Shown here: one piece after another, positions 19,706 to 59,019 of the stretch
Position numbering within the stretch: position 1 is the first letter of the stretch
Layout of the letters: each line of letters opens with the position of its first letter
DNA from: Streptomyces lichenis
Lineage (GTDB): Bacteria; Actinomycetota; Actinomycetes; Streptomycetales; Streptomycetaceae
Length of the DNA: 64,000 nucleotides
Direction of reading: 5' to 3'
NCBI RefSeq assembly: GCF_023218175.1
Contig: NZ_JALPTH010000006.1
Location: 124,001-188,000 of the forward strand
Notes under the pieces: model-generated
What the model was told of the DNA's origin: nothing
The model's input: only the letters and a program-made list of their open reading frames with translations
Databases searched by the model: none
Position numbers and translations under genes: made by a program

Positions 19706-19800
19706 GGGGGCCCGCGGGCGGGCCGGGAGCCGGAGACGGCACGCCAGGCCCGCCCCGGCCCGCCACGCGCGCCGGTGGCGTACGAGGGACCGCCCCCGGA

Positions 19801-20010
19801 CCCGTAGGCCTACGGGGCCGCCCCGGGCCCGTACGCCTACGGGGTCCCGTCCCCGAGCCCGTACGCCTGCGGGGCTGCTGCCCTCGGGCCCGTACGCCTG
19901 CGGGCCGCCGCCCTTGGGCCCGTACGCCTGCGGGGCCGCCCCCGAGCCCGTACGCCCGACGGGGCCGCCGCCCTCGGGCCCGTACGCCTGCGGGTGCCCG
20001 TACCGGCTGC
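19801..20010. repeat. array of CCCGTACGCCTGCGGG palindromic repeats
   Basis: Seven copies of a 16-17 bp core start at 19801, 19828, 19858, 19889, 19919, 19947 and 19979, about 30 bp apart, with a partial eighth at about 19997. Each is an imperfect inverted repeat CCCGTA...TACGGG or CCCGTACGCC...GCGGG; the first, CCCGTAGGCCTACGGG, is a perfect palindrome. Spacers are GC-rich. The rest of the 653-bp thrC-thrB gap holds no gene that I can support. On the minus strand the array would read as PQAYGPEGG-type peptide in several frames, recalling Pro/Gln/Gly/Tyr-rich tails of streptomycete envelope proteins, but no start or body of such a gene is present. Confidence 0.75.
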
Positions 20011-27367: not shown

Positions 27368-28462
27368 ATGGCCGACAAGGGCAAGAGCAGCCGCATACGC
27401 GCCACCGGACGCCGCCGCCGGCCGCTGGGCAAGGGGCGCCGGACGGCTCGCGTCGCCGCCTGGTCGGCCGCCGGTGTGGTCCTGGTCGGCGGCTGCGGGC
27501 TCGGTTACGCGTACTACACGCTCAACGGCAACATCGACAGCGTGGACATCAACGCCGCGCTCAACGGCGACGACCGCCCGCAGAACGTGGACAACGGCTC
27601 CATGGACATCCTCGTCCTGGGTTCCGACTCCCGGGCCGGGGCCAACGGCGACTACGGCAAGGACGAGGGCGCGGCCCGCTCCGACACCGCGATGATCGTC
27701 CACCTCTACGAGGGCCACAAGAAGGCCAGCGTGGTCTCCGTCCCCCGGGACACCATCGTCCAGCGCCCCGACTGCACGGCCGCCGACGGCTCCACCGCGC
27801 CCGGGCAGACGCACGCCATGTTCAACACCGCCTTCGAGGCCGGCGGGCCCGCCTGCGCGGTGAAGACCGTGGAGCAGATGTCCGGCATCCGCATGGACCA
27901 CTACATCGAGGTCGACTTCACCGGCTTCAAGAAGCTGATCGACGACCTCGGCGGGGTGGAGGTCACCACCACCAAGCCGATCAAGGACGGCAAGAGCCAT
28001 CTGGATCTGGCGGCCGGCACCCACACCCTGGACGGCGAGCAGTCCCTCGGCCTGGTCCGCACCCGCAAGAGCGTCGGCGACGGCAGCGACCTGGGCCGCA
28101 TCCAGCTCCAGCAGGCCTTCATGAAGGCCTTCATCGAGCAGGCCGGCTCGGTCGGGGTGTTCAGCAACCCCAAGAAGCTCTGGGACCTCGCCGACACCGC
28201 CACCAAGACGATCACCCCGGACTCCGAGCTGGACACCGTCAAGGAGCTGGCCGACTTCGCCGGCGGGCTGCGCGGACTGGGCGCCGACGACGTCAGGATG
28301 GTCACCCTGCCGGTGCAGTACGACCCCAGCGACCCCAACCGCGTGGTGCCGCTGGAGAAGCAGAGCCGCCAGGTGTGGGACGCCCTGCGCAAGGACAGGC
28401 CCATCCCCGCCTCCGCCACCAAGGACGCCGCGACGGGGCAGGCCGACGGCGTGCTGAAGTAG
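27368..28462 (+). CDS. LytR-CpsA-Psr (LCP) family cell-wall ligase
   Basis: 364 residues. LCP proteins transfer glycopolymers such as teichoic acids from undecaprenyl carriers to peptidoglycan outside the membrane. A basic cytoplasmic start (RATGRRRRPLGKGRRTAR) precedes one transmembrane segment (about 37-58). The LCP catalytic domain follows, with LVLGSDSRAG near 80, ARSDTAMIVHL near 100, VVSVPRDTIV near 118, DFTGFKKLIDDLGGVEV near 183 and GEQSLGLVRTRKS near 225. The Asp and Arg residues that hold the pyrophosphate and Mg are present. ATG 27368 has GGGGAGAGC immediately upstream. It sits between rho and rpmE as in other streptomycetes. A wecA/tagO-like gene 6 kb away could supply the lipid-linked substrate. 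Confidence 0.92.
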   Translation: MADKGKSSRIRATGRRRRPLGKGRRTARVAAWSAAGVVLVGGCGLGYAYYTLNGNIDSVDINAALNGDDRPQNVDNGSMDILVLGSDSRAGANGDYGKDEGAARSDTAMIVHLYEGHKKASVVSVPRDTIVQRPDCTAADGSTAPGQTHAMFNTAFEAGGPACAVKTVEQMSGIRMDHYIEVDFTGFKKLIDDLGGVEVTTTKPIKDGKSHLDLAAGTHTLDGEQSLGLVRTRKSVGDGSDLGRIQLQQAFMKAFIEQAGSVGVFSNPKKLWDLADTATKTITPDSELDTVKELADFAGGLRGLGADDVRMVTLPVQYDPSDPNRVVPLEKQSRQVWDALRKDRPIPASATKDAATGQADGVLK

Positions 28463-28527
28463 GGACGGAGACCGGCGGGGACGGCCCGGAGCCCGCGCCC
28501 CGCCACGGGCCGCCGGCTGCGTGTGCG

Positions 28528-28951
28528 GCCCAGCTGCCGCCCAGGTCCCGCGCCTGCGGCCTGCGGCCCGGTTTCCGCTGCCGTCCGCGTCCCGGTTTCC
28601 GCCCCCGCTCGCGGCCCGGCTGCCGCCCAGGTCCCGCGCCCGCGGCCTGCGGCCCGGCCCTCGCCTCCGTCCGCGGCCGGCTGACCGCCCAGGTCCCGCG
28701 CCCGCGGCCTGCGGCCCGGTTTCCGCCTCCGTCCGCGCCCGGTTTCCGCCCCGCTCGCGGCCCGCCCCCGGCTCCGTCCGCGGCCCGGCTGCCGCCTCCG
28801 TCCGCGTCCGGTTTCCGCCGCCGCTCGCGGCCCGGCCCCCGCCTCCGTCCGCGGCCGACTGCCGCCCCCGCTCACGGCCCGGCTTCCGCCCCGCTCACGG
28901 CCCGAATCCCGCCTCCGTCCGCGTCCGGTTTCCGCCCCGCTCGCGGCCCGG
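28528..28951. repeat. GC-rich degenerate tandem repeats between LCP gene and rpmE
   Basis: About 420 bp are built from interleaved units: CAGGTCCCGCGCC plus GCGGCCTGCGGCCCGG (three copies, near 28537, 28636 and 28700) and CCTCCGTCCGCG plus CCGGTTTCCGCC (about seven degenerate copies), linked by CCGCTCGCGGCCCG. Open frames cross the block on both strands but give only Arg/Pro/Gly-rich peptide without start signals, so I see no gene. The array lies upstream of the rpmE promoter. Confidence 0.75.
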
Positions 28952-46769: not shown

Positions 46770-46789
46770 AAGGAAAGCTGCTTGGATGG

Positions 46790-46932
46790 TCCGGGGGAGG
46801 GCGCCCGGACGGCCGGGGGACGGGTGTCCGGGCGGTCGGGGGAGGGGTGTCCGGACGGTCCTGGGGAAGGTGCCCGGAGGGTACGGGGACGGGTGTCCGG
46901 ACGGTCCGGGGAGCGGTGACCGGGGGTCCGCG
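46790..46932. repeat. tandem repeats between chiR and chiC promoter
   Basis: About 140 bp of degenerate 22-24 bp repeats built on GGGGACGGGTGTCCGGACGGTCC (for example at about 46818, 46845 and 46888). The half-palindrome GTCCGGAC recurs. No gene is present. Function unknown; slippage-derived spacer is the simple view. Confidence 0.65.
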
Positions 46933-54122: not shown

Positions 54123-54482
54123 GTGACGACGCAGACGCAGCACTCACCGGGAGCGCATATGCACATCAGGGGCGACCACGCCGAGCTGGTCGTCGGGGGC
54201 CGCCTCGACGTCCGCAGCGCGGCGGACGCCCGTACGGTCCTGCACTCGGCCGTCGACAACGGAGCCGGCGACCTGGTGCTCGACCTGACCGGACTCGACT
54301 CCTGGGACGCCACCGGCCTCGGCGTCATCATGGGCGCCCACCGGCGGGCCGGGCGCTGCGGCCGCCGGCTGGTGCTGCGCGGCGTGCCCCCGCAGATGCA
54401 GCGGCTGCTGGTGGCCACCCGGCTGCACCGCATCCTCGCCATCGAGGGCGGCCTCGCCGCCGACTCGCTGCCCCGGGTCTGA
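54123..54482 (+). CDS. STAS-domain anti-sigma-factor antagonist
   Basis: 119 residues. SpoIIAA-like STAS domain (about 13-112) with GRLDVRSAADARTVLHSAVD and LVLDLTGLDSWDATGLGVIM. Antagonists free sigma factors by binding the anti-sigma kinase, and are switched off by phosphorylation of a Ser in DSSG. Here the motif reads DATG, so Thr (about residue 63) is the only likely acceptor. GTG 54123 has GGAG close upstream; an ATG at 54159 (MHIRGDHAEL) preceded by GGGAG is an equally good start. No kinase partner lies beside it. Confidence 0.85.
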   Translation: MTTQTQHSPGAHMHIRGDHAELVVGGRLDVRSAADARTVLHSAVDNGAGDLVLDLTGLDSWDATGLGVIMGAHRRAGRCGRRLVLRGVPPQMQRLLVATRLHRILAIEGGLAADSLPRV

Positions 54483-54565
54483 CCCGGCGGCGGCGCGCGG
54501 GCCCGGCCCGTACCGCTTCCGGCTCACAAGACGGTGACGTTGTGGGCACGGGGGGACCCCGGCTC

Positions 54566-54594
54566 TTCAATCACATCGGGTTAACGTCTAGGGT
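54566..54594 (+). promoter_or_regulatory. promoter of the large repeat protein, leaderless start
   Basis: TTCAAT (54566-54571) and TAGGGT (54589-54594) are 17 bp apart, and the TTG start at 54601 follows 6 nt after TAGGGT. The transcript would begin at or next to the start codon. No ribosome site is present. Confidence 0.45.
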
Positions 54595-54600
54595 GCGGAT

Positions 54601-57600
54601 TTGACGCCCGCCCATCAAAACGAGAACCAGCGCGGGCACCGGACCGGAAGCGGCAGCGGGCGTGCGGGAAGGCCGGGATGGGCTGACGACGCACCGCGCT
54701 ACATGGGGGCTTGCACCTTGGACCCGATCGACCGGCGACCGGACGACGACTTCGGCACCGACGCCAGCGACGCCGCTACCGGCGGCACCCGCGACCTCCA
54801 CCAGCCCCCCGTCGACGGCGCGGCCGGTGCGGTCGGCTCCTTCGACGGCTTCGCCGCCGGGGCGCCCGGCGCCTCCCGGGACGCCGACGGCGGTGCGTCC
54901 GCCGGCCCCGCCGAGGCCGATGACCGCCCCGCCCCCGCCCCCGAACCGCGGGACGAGGCGGCCACGTCCCCGCTCGTCCCCGGCGCGCTCGGTGGCGGCT
55001 CCGGCCGGGTCCGCACCACCCAACTGGTCTCCGGCGGCTTCCTGCTCACCGTCAACCCGGTGGACGGCAGCGAGATAGAGCACTGCCCGCCCGGCCGGAA
55101 GCCCGAGGAGGCGCGCCGCCGCACCACTGAGGAGCGCGCCGAGCACACCCGCGCCGGCGGCCCGCCGGTGCCCGCCACCCCCGCCGCGGCGCCGCTGCCC
55201 CTGCTGCGCCGCGAGGAGGAGCGGGAGCGGCTGCTGCGGCTGCTCGCCCGCGACCGCTCCGCCCTGGTCACCGGCCCGGCCGGCTCCGGGCGCACCGCGC
55301 TCCTCGACGCGGTGGCCGCCGACTGCGCCGAGCTCGCCGAGGACGGCGTCATCCGGCTCAGCGGAGTGGGCCGCACCCCCGCCGAGGTGCTGTACGAGCT
55401 GCACGCGGCCGTGCTGCACGCCCCCGGGCACCGCCCCGACCGCGAGGGGCTCACCGCCGCCCTCACCGGGCTGGACGCGGTCATCGTCGTGGACGACCTG
55501 GAGTTCGGCGGCGCCGCGCTGGACGAGCTCCTGGACGCCGTACCCGAGAGCGTCTTCCTGTGCGCCGCGCTCAGCGGCACCGTGGAGCCCTCCGAAGGCG
55601 CCTGGATGGACGAGGTGCCGCTGCCCGGACTGGACCGGGACGCCGCCGTGGAGCTGGTCAGGCGCGCCGTGGACCGGCCGCTCACCGAGGACGAGGCCAA
55701 CTGGACCGGCGACCTCTGGTTCGAGTCCGAGGGGCTGCCGCTGCGGTTCGTCCAGGCCGCCGCCCTGCTGCGGCAGCGCGACGAGCTCAGCCCCGCGCCC
55801 GCCGACCCCGACGCGCTCTCCCAGTACGACGAGGACGACGTCTTCGCCGACACCCACGCGGCTCCGCTGCCCTCGCTCGGCGACGGCGCCGCCCCCGCCC
55901 CGCTGCTCGCCTCCCGGCTGACCGAGGCGGCCCGGGAGACCCTGCGCTTCGCCGTCGCGCTCGGCGGCGAGGTCCCGCACCCCGCGCATCTGCCCGCGCT
56001 GGTCGGCGACACCCACGCGGACGCCGCCCTCGGCGAACTGCTGCGCTGCGGACTGCTCAGCCCGGCCGGCCCCCGCTACCGGCTGGCCGCCGGGGTGCTC
56101 ACCCAGCTCACCGCCGACGGCTACGGGGAGGGCGCCGACGCCCGCGCGCACAGCGCCGCCCGGCACTACGCCTGGTGGACCGGCCACCCCTCGGTCAGCC
56201 CCGAGCGGGTCGCCGCCGAGGCCGATTCGGTGCTCGCCGCGATGACCGCGCTGCTGCCGAGCGCCGAGGCCGGGCACGCCAGTTCGGTGGTGCTGCTCGC
56301 CCGCAGCGCCGCGCCCGCCTTCGCCGCGGCCCTGCACTGGGGCGCCTGGGAGCGTGCCCTGCGGGCCGGCTCCGAGGCCGCCCGGATCGCCGGTGAGGTC
56401 GCCGAAGAGGCGTACATCCACCATGAGTTGGGGATCATCGCGCTCTGCGCCGGCAATCTGGACCGGGCCCGCGCCGAGCTGGAGGCGTCCACTTCCATGC
56501 GCGGGGCGCTGGCCGACAAGCGCGGTGCGGTGGCCGGCCGGCGCGCCCTCGCCCTGGTCGCCGACTGCGAACGCGCCCGCCCCGGCGAGGAGCCCGCGCC
56601 GCTCGCGCTGGTCCCGCCCCGCCAGGAGGGCCCGGCCTCACCGGCCGGCGGCGTACCGGCGGCGGCCGGACTGCCGTATCTGCCGGGGCTGTCCAAGACC
56701 CCGCCGCCGGGTCCGGTGCCCGCGTACGACACCCCGGTCGGCACACCGCTCGGTCTGCCGGCCGCCCGGTCGGCCGCCACCTCGCCCGGCTGGTCGGTGA
56801 GCGCCCCCACCATGGTGTCCGGCCCCACCGGCCGCGGCTCCCGGGTGCGGCGCACCCTGCTGAGCGGCGCCCGGCGCAATCTGGCCGCGGTCGGCGCCGG
56901 CGCCCTGCTGGTGGCCGTGCTCGGCACGGTGGTCACCCTGGGCGCGACCTCCGGCGACGGCAAGGCCGACCCGGGGCAGGTCATCACCGAGCGGTCCACC
57001 CCCAAGGACACCGGCGACGGCGGCCCGGGCACCGACGAGCCCGCCGAGGGCTCGACCCGCGACCCGGGCGGGCAGCTGCCCGGCACCACCGGCGGGGGCG
57101 CCGCCGCCTCGGGCGGTTCCGGCGACTCCGGGGCGACCTCCGGGCCCGGCGGGGACGACGGCACGACCGAGTCGCCCACCCCGTCGGACAAGCCGAGCTC
57201 CCCGGACGGCACCGACCCGTCGACCGGCACCCCCGGCCCGACCACCAGCGGCCCGACCACCAGCGGCCCCACCGGCGGCACCGACCCGACGGGCGGCACC
57301 GACCCCACCGGCGGTACGGACCCCACCGGGGGCACCGATCCCACCGGGGGCACCGACCCGACCGGGGGCACCGACCCGACGGGCGGCACCGACCCCACCG
57401 GCGGCACGGACCCGACCGGCGGCACGGACCCGACGGGCGGCACCGACCCCACCGGCGGCACGGATCCCACCGGGGGCACGGACCCGACCGGCGGCACCGA
57501 CCCGGTGGGCGGCAACCAGGGCGGTGCGGGCTCCTCCTCCGGCGGCGGCAGCGACGCCGGAGGCGCCCAGGCGGCCGGCGGCGGCGCGGGCGGCAGCGCC

Positions 57601-57612
57601 TCGGCCGACTGA
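54601..57612 (+). CDS. large P-loop-like membrane protein with GGTDPT repeats
   Basis: 1003 residues. A disordered acidic N-terminus (1-200) precedes an ATPase-like region (about 205-480) with [10 protein letters not shown] at 225-234, a Walker A in which the Lys is R231, and Walker [10 protein letters not shown] near 300. Helical, TPR-like repeats follow (about 545-660, [40 protein letters not shown]), then one membrane helix (about 760-783). The outside part (784-1003) is low complexity, including 13 GGTDPT units. It resembles LuxR/STAND-type regulators in layout but lacks a DNA-binding end. A sensor or scaffold reaching into the wall is a guess. The TTG start at 54601 is supported only by the promoter spacing; an ATG at 54703 is possible. 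Confidence 0.78.
57274..57507 (+). repeat. 13 tandem 18-bp repeats encoding GGTDPT
   Basis: Thirteen in-frame copies of an 18-bp unit (GGCGGCACCGACCCGACG with synonymous variation; last unit GGTDPV) inside the large membrane protein gene. Third-position differences among copies show the array is not freshly expanded throughout, though neighbouring copies are often identical. Confidence 0.95.
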
Positions 57613-57747: not shown

Positions 57748-58410
57748 CTAGAAGAGCTTGAGCTTGTCGTCCTCGATGCCGCGCAGCCCGTCGTAGTCCA
57801 GTACCACGCAGCCGATGCCGCGGTCCGTCGCCAGCACCCGGGCCTGCGGCTTGATCTCCTGGGCGGCGAACACGCCCCGGACCGGCGCGAGGTGCGGGTC
57901 GCGGTTGAGCAGCTCCAGATAGCGGGTCAGCTGCTCCACGCCGTCGATCTCGCCGCGCCGCTTGATCTCCACCGCCACGGTGGCGCCGCCGCCGTCCCGG
58001 CAGAGGATGTCCACCGGCCCGATGGCGGTGGGGTACTCGCGGCGGATCAGCGTGTAACCGTCGCCCAGTGTCTCGATCCTGTCGGCGAGCAGTTCCTGGA
58101 GGTGCGCTTCCACGCCGTCCTTCACCAGCCCGGGATCGACGCCCAGTTCGTGCGAGGAGTCGTGGAGGATCTCCTCCATCGTGATGATCAGTTTCTCGCC
58201 CGCCTTGTTGACGACCGTCCACACACTGCCGTCGCCCTCCTTGAGGGTGCACGGCGGCGACATCCAGTTGAGCGGTTTGTACGCTCGGTCGTCGGCGTGG
58301 ATCGACACGCTGCCGTCCGCCTTGACCAGGATCAGTCGGGGTGCGGAGGGCAGGTGGGCGGTGAGCCGGCCCGCGTAGTCCACGGAGCAGCGGGCAATGA
58401 CGAGACGCAT
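57748..58410 (-). CDS. nucS: mismatch-specific endonuclease NucS/EndoMS
   Basis: 223 residues. NucS cuts both strands around mismatches (G-T, G-G, T-T) and provides mismatch repair in actinobacteria, which lack MutS/MutL. The nuclease core has D134 (GPVDILCRD), E148 and K150 (VAVEIKRRG), a PD-D/ExK-type centre. The N-terminal domain matches the family ([20 protein letters not shown]). The C-terminal DYDGLRG...KLKLF ends in the LxLF-type peptide used for sliding-clamp contact. ATG 58410 is the conserved start; upstream in-frame codons are not homologous. Divergent from an SCO5389-type gene. Confidence 0.96.
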
Positions 58411-58626
58411 GGTCGGCAACGCTACTCGACGGACCTGGCCATGCGCGATTCGGCCCTGAAATCCCCTTCTTCCGTGGCCGGTTGTGGCCCCGTTCGCCTG
58501 GTGCGGTCCGGACAGCGCGCTTACCGTGGAGACAGGAGGTTGCCGCGCGTACACGCTGCGTGTAACGGCGGGTGCCTTCTTCCCTGCCCGTAAGACCCCC
58601 GTCCCAGGGGTCCGAGAGGAGAACCC

Positions 58627-59019
58627 ATGTCGCTCGACGTCTCACCGGCGCTGTTGGAACAGGCCGAGCGAGGCGAGGTCGACGAAGCCGCCTTCGTCGA
58701 CTGCGTCCGGACCTCCCTGCCCTTCGCCTGGCAGATGATCAGCAACCTGGTGGCCCAGCTGAAGGTGGACGGCGGTGCGTTCGCCGACAACCAGACGCCT
58801 CCGCCGGACGAGCAGGCGCGCGGCCAGCTGCTGCGCGCGCTGGCGAGTGATGCGATCCGGGGGGCGCTGCAACGGCACTTCGGTGTGCGGCTGGCCTTCC
58901 AGAACTGCCACCGCGTCGCGGTGTTCCCGCTGGACCCCTCGGCCGACGAGCGGCTGGCCCGCTTCACGTCCGTACGGGCCCAGCTGCTGAACCAGTCCCC
59001 GGAACTGCGCGACTGCTGA
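58627..59019 (+). CDS. SCO5389-type conserved protein
   Basis: 130 residues, soluble, no signal or membrane segment. The protein ([76 protein letters not shown]) matches, from memory, the streptomycete family named after SCO5389, of unknown function. It is mostly alpha-helical with two Cys (about 28 and 96). GAGAGGAG precedes the ATG by 5 nt. Conserved neighbourhood with nucS makes a role in DNA maintenance or stress conceivable, but nothing in the sequence says so. Confidence 0.8.

Follow-up and report, generated by a model that had tools for sequence, protein, structure and literature searches.

A widely conserved Streptomyces protein with a predicted STAND-type core, an arginine-bearing P-loop and a predicted disordered exterior tail

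What can be the role of a protein that appears to join the core of a nucleotide-dependent switch, with arginine in place of its Walker-A lysine, to a membrane helix and a repetitive exterior tail? A long open reading frame (ORF) of Streptomyces lichenis raises this question; it lies in the 64,000-nucleotide stretch of DNA analysed here (the window; contig NZ_JALPTH010000006.1 of assembly GCF_023218175.1, positions 124,001 to 188,000). We propose, with a probability of about 0.35 and by analogy with known systems, that its product is a membrane-tethered, probably hydrolysis-poor signalling protein of the STAND fold, with a disordered tail that senses the cell wall or engages it. The fold, the topology and the disorder of the tail are strongly predicted, and the kept arginine and the wide conservation are observed. 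Residue numbers refer to a 964-residue protein and are lower by 39 than those of a preliminary description of the locus, whose R231 is R192 here.

54718..57612, plus strand: corrected coding sequence, 964 amino acids, TTG start aligned to the ATG of relatives, stop codon at 57610-57612.

The modelling strongly predicts a cytoplasmic STAND-type switch, composed of a P-loop domain, a helical domain, a winged helix and TPR-like helices. Its features were compared across 111 close ORFs, that of the window among them; three pairs are duplicates, which leaves 108 distinct sequences. They were also compared in alignment A2, which took in 47 of 94 relatives that qualified; an ORF longer than 960 amino acids from the start, or with no start found, was ineligible.

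55000..56577, plus strand: STAND-fold core, residues 95-620, with a small beta element, P-loop domain, helical domain, winged helix and helical tail (AlphaFold2 and fold matches).
55273..55296, plus strand: Walker A-like motif GPAGSGRT, arginine codon at 55291-55293, arginine in 111 of 111 close ORFs.
55480..55497, plus strand: Walker B motif VIVVDD, both aspartates in 111 of 111 close ORFs.
55732..55743, plus strand: motif that we take to be of the GLPL type, invariant or nearly so in A2.
56269..56577, plus strand: TPR-like helices, residues 518-620 (model helices; weak TPR_2 match, E 0.077; TPR entries of LGN among the fold matches).

The AlphaFold2 model of residues 95-633, from 87 aligned sequences, had a mean predicted local distance difference test score (pLDDT) of 92.5 and a predicted template-modelling score (pTM) of 0.90; the full-length model (48 sequences; mean pLDDT 67.7, pTM 0.64) was confident for the core up to about residue 620, followed by a low-confidence linker that is predicted to be disordered and cytoplasmic. 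Compared with the core model, the highest values were obtained for 6mfv, a STAND protein with a TPR sensor (Z 18.0, root-mean-square deviation (rmsd) 3.9, 340 residues aligned), the NB-ARC of NRC1 in 8bv0 (Z 17.9, rmsd 3.2, 287 aligned) and Apaf-1 in 3sfz (Z 17.6, rmsd 4.8, 409 aligned), and chain C of 8bob, an entry on maltose-system regulation that we take to be MalT, reached Z 15.6 (rmsd 4.1, 354 aligned). The TPR protein LGN (6hc2) gave Z 14.5 with an rmsd of 6.2, and other AAA+ entries, such as Cdc6/ORC, about 12.6 and lower. Foldseek ranked Apaf-1 first, 6mfv second and NRC2 fifth. Such Z values are middling and common for helical models, but STAND entries still come out on top and match the modelled P-loop, helical and winged-helix parts, so that the STAND-like interior claimed in the preliminary description is borne out, with Z values of 15.6-18.0.

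By sequence, AAA_16 (PF13191) scored 22.0 bits with the full frame and 26.5 bits with the core, below its Pfam gathering score of 32.6 bits; the family search suggested earlier for the ATPase-like region thus stays under the cut-off, and it is by structure that the STAND fold appears. The TPR-like helices noted at that time fit the modelled helices 518-620, with weak support from Pfam. Neither Pfam nor NCBIfam gave any family over the cut-off, or any further domain, for the focal protein, nor a match, at E values up to 1, to a domain of the RsgI_N type, presumably the name of the N-terminal anti-sigma domain. The best 60 of 389 PDB sequence matches were generic P-loop matches. The preliminary description had allowed for a close homologue with a known, unrelated function, but the Pfam, NCBIfam, PDB sequence and open-access literature searches found no close homologue of known function.

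Arginine 192 is present in all 111 close ORFs, whose P-loops read GxxGxGR[ST], not GxxxxGK[ST], and keep the glycines alongside it. At the Walker-A lysine position, 20 divergent orthologs have R (18), K (1) or G (1), and 14 paralogs K (11) or T (3); the acidic pair of Walker B in the same orthologs is DD in 18 and DE in two. Alignment A1 comprised 53 close ORFs (every second of the 110 other than the window's own, or 55, less L080, removed by the X/stop filter, and L058) and 33 of 34 further loci, without L159; the tree was additionally built without L152. In this tree, 74 orthologs formed one supported clade (99), with R in 72, K in one (L143) and G in one (L144), and 12 paralogs, with K or T, stood apart. 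The most economical reading would be a single change from lysine to arginine at the base of the ortholog clade and two later changes, the direction of the first being taken from midpoint rooting in a tree with several long branches. The Arg-for-Lys P-loop of the preliminary description is therefore confirmed, and its retention across the family rules out a sequencing error or a recent decay; a single origin at the clade base, which fits the tree, likewise points away from the latter.

P-loop mutants in which lysine is changed to arginine often bind ATP without hydrolysing it, and the earlier doubt about hydrolysis by the focal protein is a fair inference. A lost MHD-type histidine was also considered as a mark of inactivation, and dropped because the K-bearing paralogs lack it too at the aligned place. 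A literature search on Walker-A arginine returned nothing pertinent. Among the best 30 of 89 AAA_16 matches in the window's own genome, 25 have K and two R, and the motif was not found by pattern in three loci. The raw count was 25 K and four R, but two of the R matches (L165, on the plus strand, and L176, in a second frame) were set aside as out of frame because both loci carry an in-frame K motif. The two remaining R-bearing AAA_16-type proteins, L164 and L177, lend something to the alternative that the P-loop, despite its arginine, remains able to bind and hydrolyse ATP, the protein cycling like other STAND switches, as do the glycines and the Walker B motif kept in all close ORFs and the lysine of L143. 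We nevertheless consider an ATP-driven switch unlikely, in view of the apparent replacement of the lysine at the base of the ortholog clade, the glycine of L144 and the loss of a P-loop glycine in L137, L140 and L141 (GPASSGRT twice, GPSSSGRS).

Beyond the core, the protein is predicted to cross the membrane once and to end in a disordered tail.

56872..56946, plus strand: predicted transmembrane helix, residues 719-743 (lone helix in the full-length model; column consensus 0.81; charge bias).
56947..57609, plus strand: exterior tail, rich in G, T, P, D, S and A, lacking Cys and aromatics, predicted disordered (composition; block pLDDT about 30-40).
57274..57507, plus strand: 13 tandem GGTDP[TV] units of 18 bp each (Tandem Repeats Finder (TRF) and composition count).

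The best hydrophobic stretch of 19 residues has a Kyte-Doolittle mean of 2.24, and the helix is as conserved as the core (mean column consensus 0.81 vs 0.77-0.81). Lysine plus arginine in the 15 flanking residues average 4.3 before the helix and 0.7 after it, and are more numerous before it in 109 of 111 sequences, counting that of the window. The positive-inside rule, applied to this bias, predicts that the tail lies outside and the STAND core in the cytoplasm. The single membrane helix and outside exterior described previously are thus supported as a prediction. The picture of a STAND sensor turned inside-out is no more than figurative, since the STAND module would be cytoplasmic like that of other STAND proteins and the unusual part would be the C-terminal helix with its outside tail.

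The exterior of the window protein has 219 residues, one fewer than first stated, and is indeed of low complexity. Its array does contain 13 units, of which 12 are exact GGTDPT and one is GGTDPV, not 13 GGTDPT (TRF: 13.2 copies of the 18-bp unit, score 322). The weight originally placed on this array did not hold, and we rejected it as a functional feature, because only two of 109 complete tails contain any GGTDPT: that of the window protein (L001) and, with a single unit, that of L014, which is made mainly of other repeats. Among the 109 sequences with complete C-termini, the exterior measures 120-421 residues (median 170), with a median G/S/T/P/A/D content of 83% (lowest 62%); the median number of aromatics is zero, and a single tail contains Cys. 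The mean column consensus of the tail is 0.45-0.48, and the window protein and its nearest relative, L014, are identical at 381 of 518 core positions and 75 of 198 tail positions. Low consensus with steady composition indicates that the make-up of the tail is kept and its sequence is not; the 18-bp repeat would then be one local solution for an exterior rich in P, S, T and G.

A tail of low complexity without conserved sequence would also fit a structural tether, with a cytoplasmic scaffold anchored to the wall by a passive or glycosylated spacer that senses nothing. O-mannosylation of an unstructured Pro-Thr linker in actinobacteria is described in a passage of PMC12757957, and the window's own genome gave four matches to PF02366. 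The same family also matches eight of 14 genomes used as controls, including E. coli and B. subtilis, so it says little on mannosylation. The core, in turn, is under a strong constraint needless for a mere tether, with 110 columns at least 99% identical, and paralogs bear other exterior parts. On balance, a tether seems rather unlikely to us.

These paralogs, found in part of the Streptomycetaceae genomes only (L146-L159), were picked up as weak matches and contain a STAND-type core, a hydrophobic stretch and then differing exterior parts, longer in several of them; their cores are 25-31% identical to the ortholog core (13 aligned). Grouping of the exteriors by BLASTP (E 1e-3) gave a Cys-bearing group (L146, L151, L153, L154), a second group (L156-L158) and a pair of 370 residues (L149, L152). 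The exterior of L155 resembles choice-of-anchor D, with 34.2 bits, below the cut-off of 45, and those of L147, L148, L150 and L159 match no other paralog's. One plan of STAND core and helix would thus carry four or more kinds of exterior that do not resemble each other in sequence, and this exchange is the best argument for a receptor-type plan. Separately, L149, L151 and L152 form another degenerate branch, in which Thr replaces the Walker-A lysine and Asn stands at the second position of Walker B. The layout had been called unusual: that applies to the C-terminal helix with outside tail, but less to the plan as a whole, which the paralogs share, and PMC7159879 describes inactive STAND domains in systems of which part are membrane-linked.

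The gene is nearly universal in the family of the window. Counting its own genome, 100 of 101 sampled genomes gave a match, the best E value never exceeding 2.5e-42; the sole exception, G038, is assembled in about 1650 contigs and is 7% contaminated. Some of these genomes contain a second, paralogous match. In an order-level sample all 45 genomes of the genus matched, along with three of 15 from other families (1.7e-105, 1.4e-104 and 5.6e-45), to be read against the 2.3e-116 scored by a known paralog. In the class-wide sample, strong matches were those of 16 genomes of the window's genus. There, a single-protein query matched 36 of 197 genomes at E 0.001, 20 of them beyond the genus at 2.9e-7 or weaker, and a profile query 28 of 197 at 1e-12, 12 of them beyond the genus at best 4.9e-21 and over part of the core. 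We take SCO5387 to be the probable S. coelicolor ortholog, from its synteny with SCO5388, and the open-access literature searched contained nothing on the inferred ortholog numbers SCO5387 or SCO5386. A passage of PMC5290159 identifies SCO5388 as nucS. CvnF8, which came up in a literature search, is a GAF-domain protein (PMC13343842) and unrelated, and PMC4255298 and PMC11109965 offered no useful context. The product of the focal gene is genuine and conserved, and the searches made here found no characterisation of it.

This distribution bears on the idea that the protein is an effector of conflict or cell death, as other STAND proteins are in multicellular bacteria. An excerpt of PMC7159879 places STAND NTPases in systems of that kind, and PADLOC gave one weak match (PDC-S68, E 6e-4). 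We deem an effector very improbable, because the gene is near-universal in the sample and mostly syntenic, a collection of 72,556 plasmid records yielded one weak partial match, in a record of 11.9 Mb, and Pfam and NCBIfam found no further domain.

The focal gene has usual neighbours on both sides, of which the upstream one may bear on its output.

54123..54482, plus strand: STAS-domain gene of the anti-sigma factor antagonist type, usual upstream neighbour (PF13466, E 9.7e-16; TIGR00377 over the cut-off).
57748..58554, minus strand: nucS (endonuclease NucS), usual convergent downstream neighbour (PF01939, E 3.6e-40; PF21003, E 8.9e-33).
54589..54594, plus strand: conserved hexamer TAGGGT, -10-like, in the spacer from the STAS gene to the focal gene (consensus columns).

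Of 80 named loci, 72 have both neighbours, five STAS only and three nucS only, placing STAS beside the gene in 77 and nucS in 75; the three without STAS start at a contig end, and four of the five without nucS are shortened by one, L085 not. Within about 2.4-4 kb, STAS is near the gene in 15 and nucS in 11 of the 20 divergent genomes. The STAS protein has Thr (91) or Ser (1), at what we take to be the usual phospho-site, in all 92 cases found among 100 loci searched. The P/S/T/G-rich tail might reach into the peptidoglycan and report its density or damage, as proposed for RsgI; the membrane helix would relay this signal to the STAND core, which would bind nucleotide, hydrolyse it poorly or not at all, and serve as a switch for assembly or docking. 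Partner switching could form the output, by way of the STAS protein encoded alongside and a sigma factor of the SigB type; a passage of PMC8346170 counts nine SigB homologues in S. coelicolor. A bolder version, which we regard as a long shot, would be a wall-integrity receptor common to the Streptomycetaceae whose STAND core, with its fixed arginine, is held in one nucleotide state and switched mechanically by the tail, not by hydrolysis of ATP, feeding a SigB-type network via STAS, the paralogs being receptors with swapped exteriors.

Several observations weigh against a signalling protein of this kind. The modelled helix 719-743 has a block pLDDT of only about 52-60, and the whole-model Foldseek TM-scores of the best STAND entries are low (0.34-0.45 by query length), so the placement of the domains differs or is unsure. 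L143 and L144 break the arginine rule, and the fast-changing tail also fits a passive spacer. No STAS gene was found by tblastn (E up to 1e-4) in about 2.4-3.5 kb upstream in L137, L138, L140, L141 and L142, and in L136 STAS and the gene are separated by a long frame, which we presume from its resemblance to encode a mutase. The conserved promoter-like box implies that the two genes may be transcribed apart, which leaves the coupling to STAS weak.

That box, together with a STAS-to-gene gap of 176-289 bp in 65 of the 75 loci measured and the separation or apparent absence of STAS upstream in six of the 20 divergent genomes, would suit an output other than sigma control, with the protein docking factors of DNA repair, division or polar growth at the membrane and STAS reflecting only chromosomal order. 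The neighbourhood kept in 77 of the 80 named loci is difficult to accommodate there, and we find such docking decidedly doubtful. If the proposed membrane-tethered signalling protein is real, the combination of a STAND fold and a wall-facing disordered tail would be a distinct inward route for envelope information in antibiotic producers, and the exchanged exterior parts of the paralogs would belong to the same route. The family would also offer a natural case of a Walker-A lysine-to-arginine change, kept through most of its members, in which the role of hydrolysis in STAND switching is testable. The STAND fold itself is already known; new here would be its occurrence with an altered P-loop.

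The start of the gene required correction. The frame at 54601-57612 (plus strand) is open throughout, as the preliminary description had it, but its start and its length of 1003 residues most likely do not stand. Among the ORFs whose N-terminus is readable (107 with that of the window), 104 have an in-frame M-[DNE]-[PHRQ] ahead of the core, and in the alignment of relatives the ATG of their MDP.. start corresponds to the window's TTG at 54718-54720. The true start is most likely this TTG and not 54601, and the first 39 residues of the longer frame are probably untranslated. An ATG at 54703, which overlaps the ribosome-binding site, is a less likely alternative.

54705..54709, plus strand: ribosome-binding site GGGGG, 8 bases 5' of the TTG (GGGG columns conserved in the upstream alignment).
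54718..54999, plus strand: cytoplasmic N-terminus (residues 1-94), predicted disordered and opening with a conserved MDPxxxGPEE (pLDDT mostly below 50; A2 consensus).

The A2 consensus of residues 1-94 also holds an RPxRxxLxxDxGQ motif, perhaps a docking peptide. In the upstream alignment (19 of 76 sequences), exact TAGGGT occurs in 14 of the 19 regions, and an E. coli-type promoter scan does not call this box. The leader, 54483-54717, shows in the same alignment a conserved CCGGACC-containing stretch after TAGGGT. A known structured RNA was sought there and discarded, with a single chance-level Rfam match (E 0.25, other strand) and none over the cut-off. Long stop-free stretches occupy the usual place of the STAS gene in L137, L138, L140, L141 and L142, which represent two divergent genera. 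The window genome has 7.1 Mb, and in the tree its core protein clusters with loci of named Streptomyces.

Ten ORFs chosen between 49887 and 63869, and the STAS ORF, were scanned with Pfam. The neighbours matched NucS, 3-hydroxyacyl-CoA dehydrogenase, TetR, ABC transporter parts, cobalamin adenosyltransferase, NucS shadow and luciferase-like families, one had no match, and none of the eleven matched MoxR or vWA. The ORF at 58627-59019, adjoining nucS, is a Pfam 'NucS shadow ORF' (PF20704, E 7e-65). Elsewhere in the window, GC-rich tandem arrays occur at 19786-20000 (periods of about 30/61/90 bases), 46784-46930 (about 23/46/69 bases) and, in imperfect form, at 28525-28951, after an ORF ending at 28462 that we take for a LytR-CpsA-Psr protein.

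Most of what is known of STAND proteins concerns switches of the cytoplasm that act in immunity, cell death and transcription. With the STAND NTPases 6mfv, Apaf-1, plant NB-ARC and MalT, the focal protein shares the predicted order of P-loop, helical domain, winged helix and putative helical repeats, a Walker B and a GLPL-type motif; unlike them, it has arginine for the Walker-A lysine, a predicted C-terminal membrane helix and exterior tail, and an AAA_16 match below the cut-off. Another parallel is iSTAND of the MoxR-vWA systems, whose STAND domain is described as inactive, with membrane and wall links in part of the systems, and which are almost absent from actinobacteria, as stated in portions of PMC7159879. 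Unlike in those systems, no MoxR or vWA match accompanies the gene among the ten neighbouring ORFs scanned here.

Brunet et al. 2022 is reportedly the primary work on the disordered exterior regions of RsgI and PBP1 in Bacillus subtilis. The exterior region of RsgI has been proposed to detect gaps in the peptidoglycan (in a section of PMC13059805), and such regions are described for PBP1 and membrane proteins (in part of PMC10216114). Like RsgI and PBP1, the focal product would be a membrane protein bearing a disordered exterior region; unlike RsgI, its cytoplasmic part would be a STAND fold and not an anti-sigma domain, and wall sensing is proposed here by analogy.

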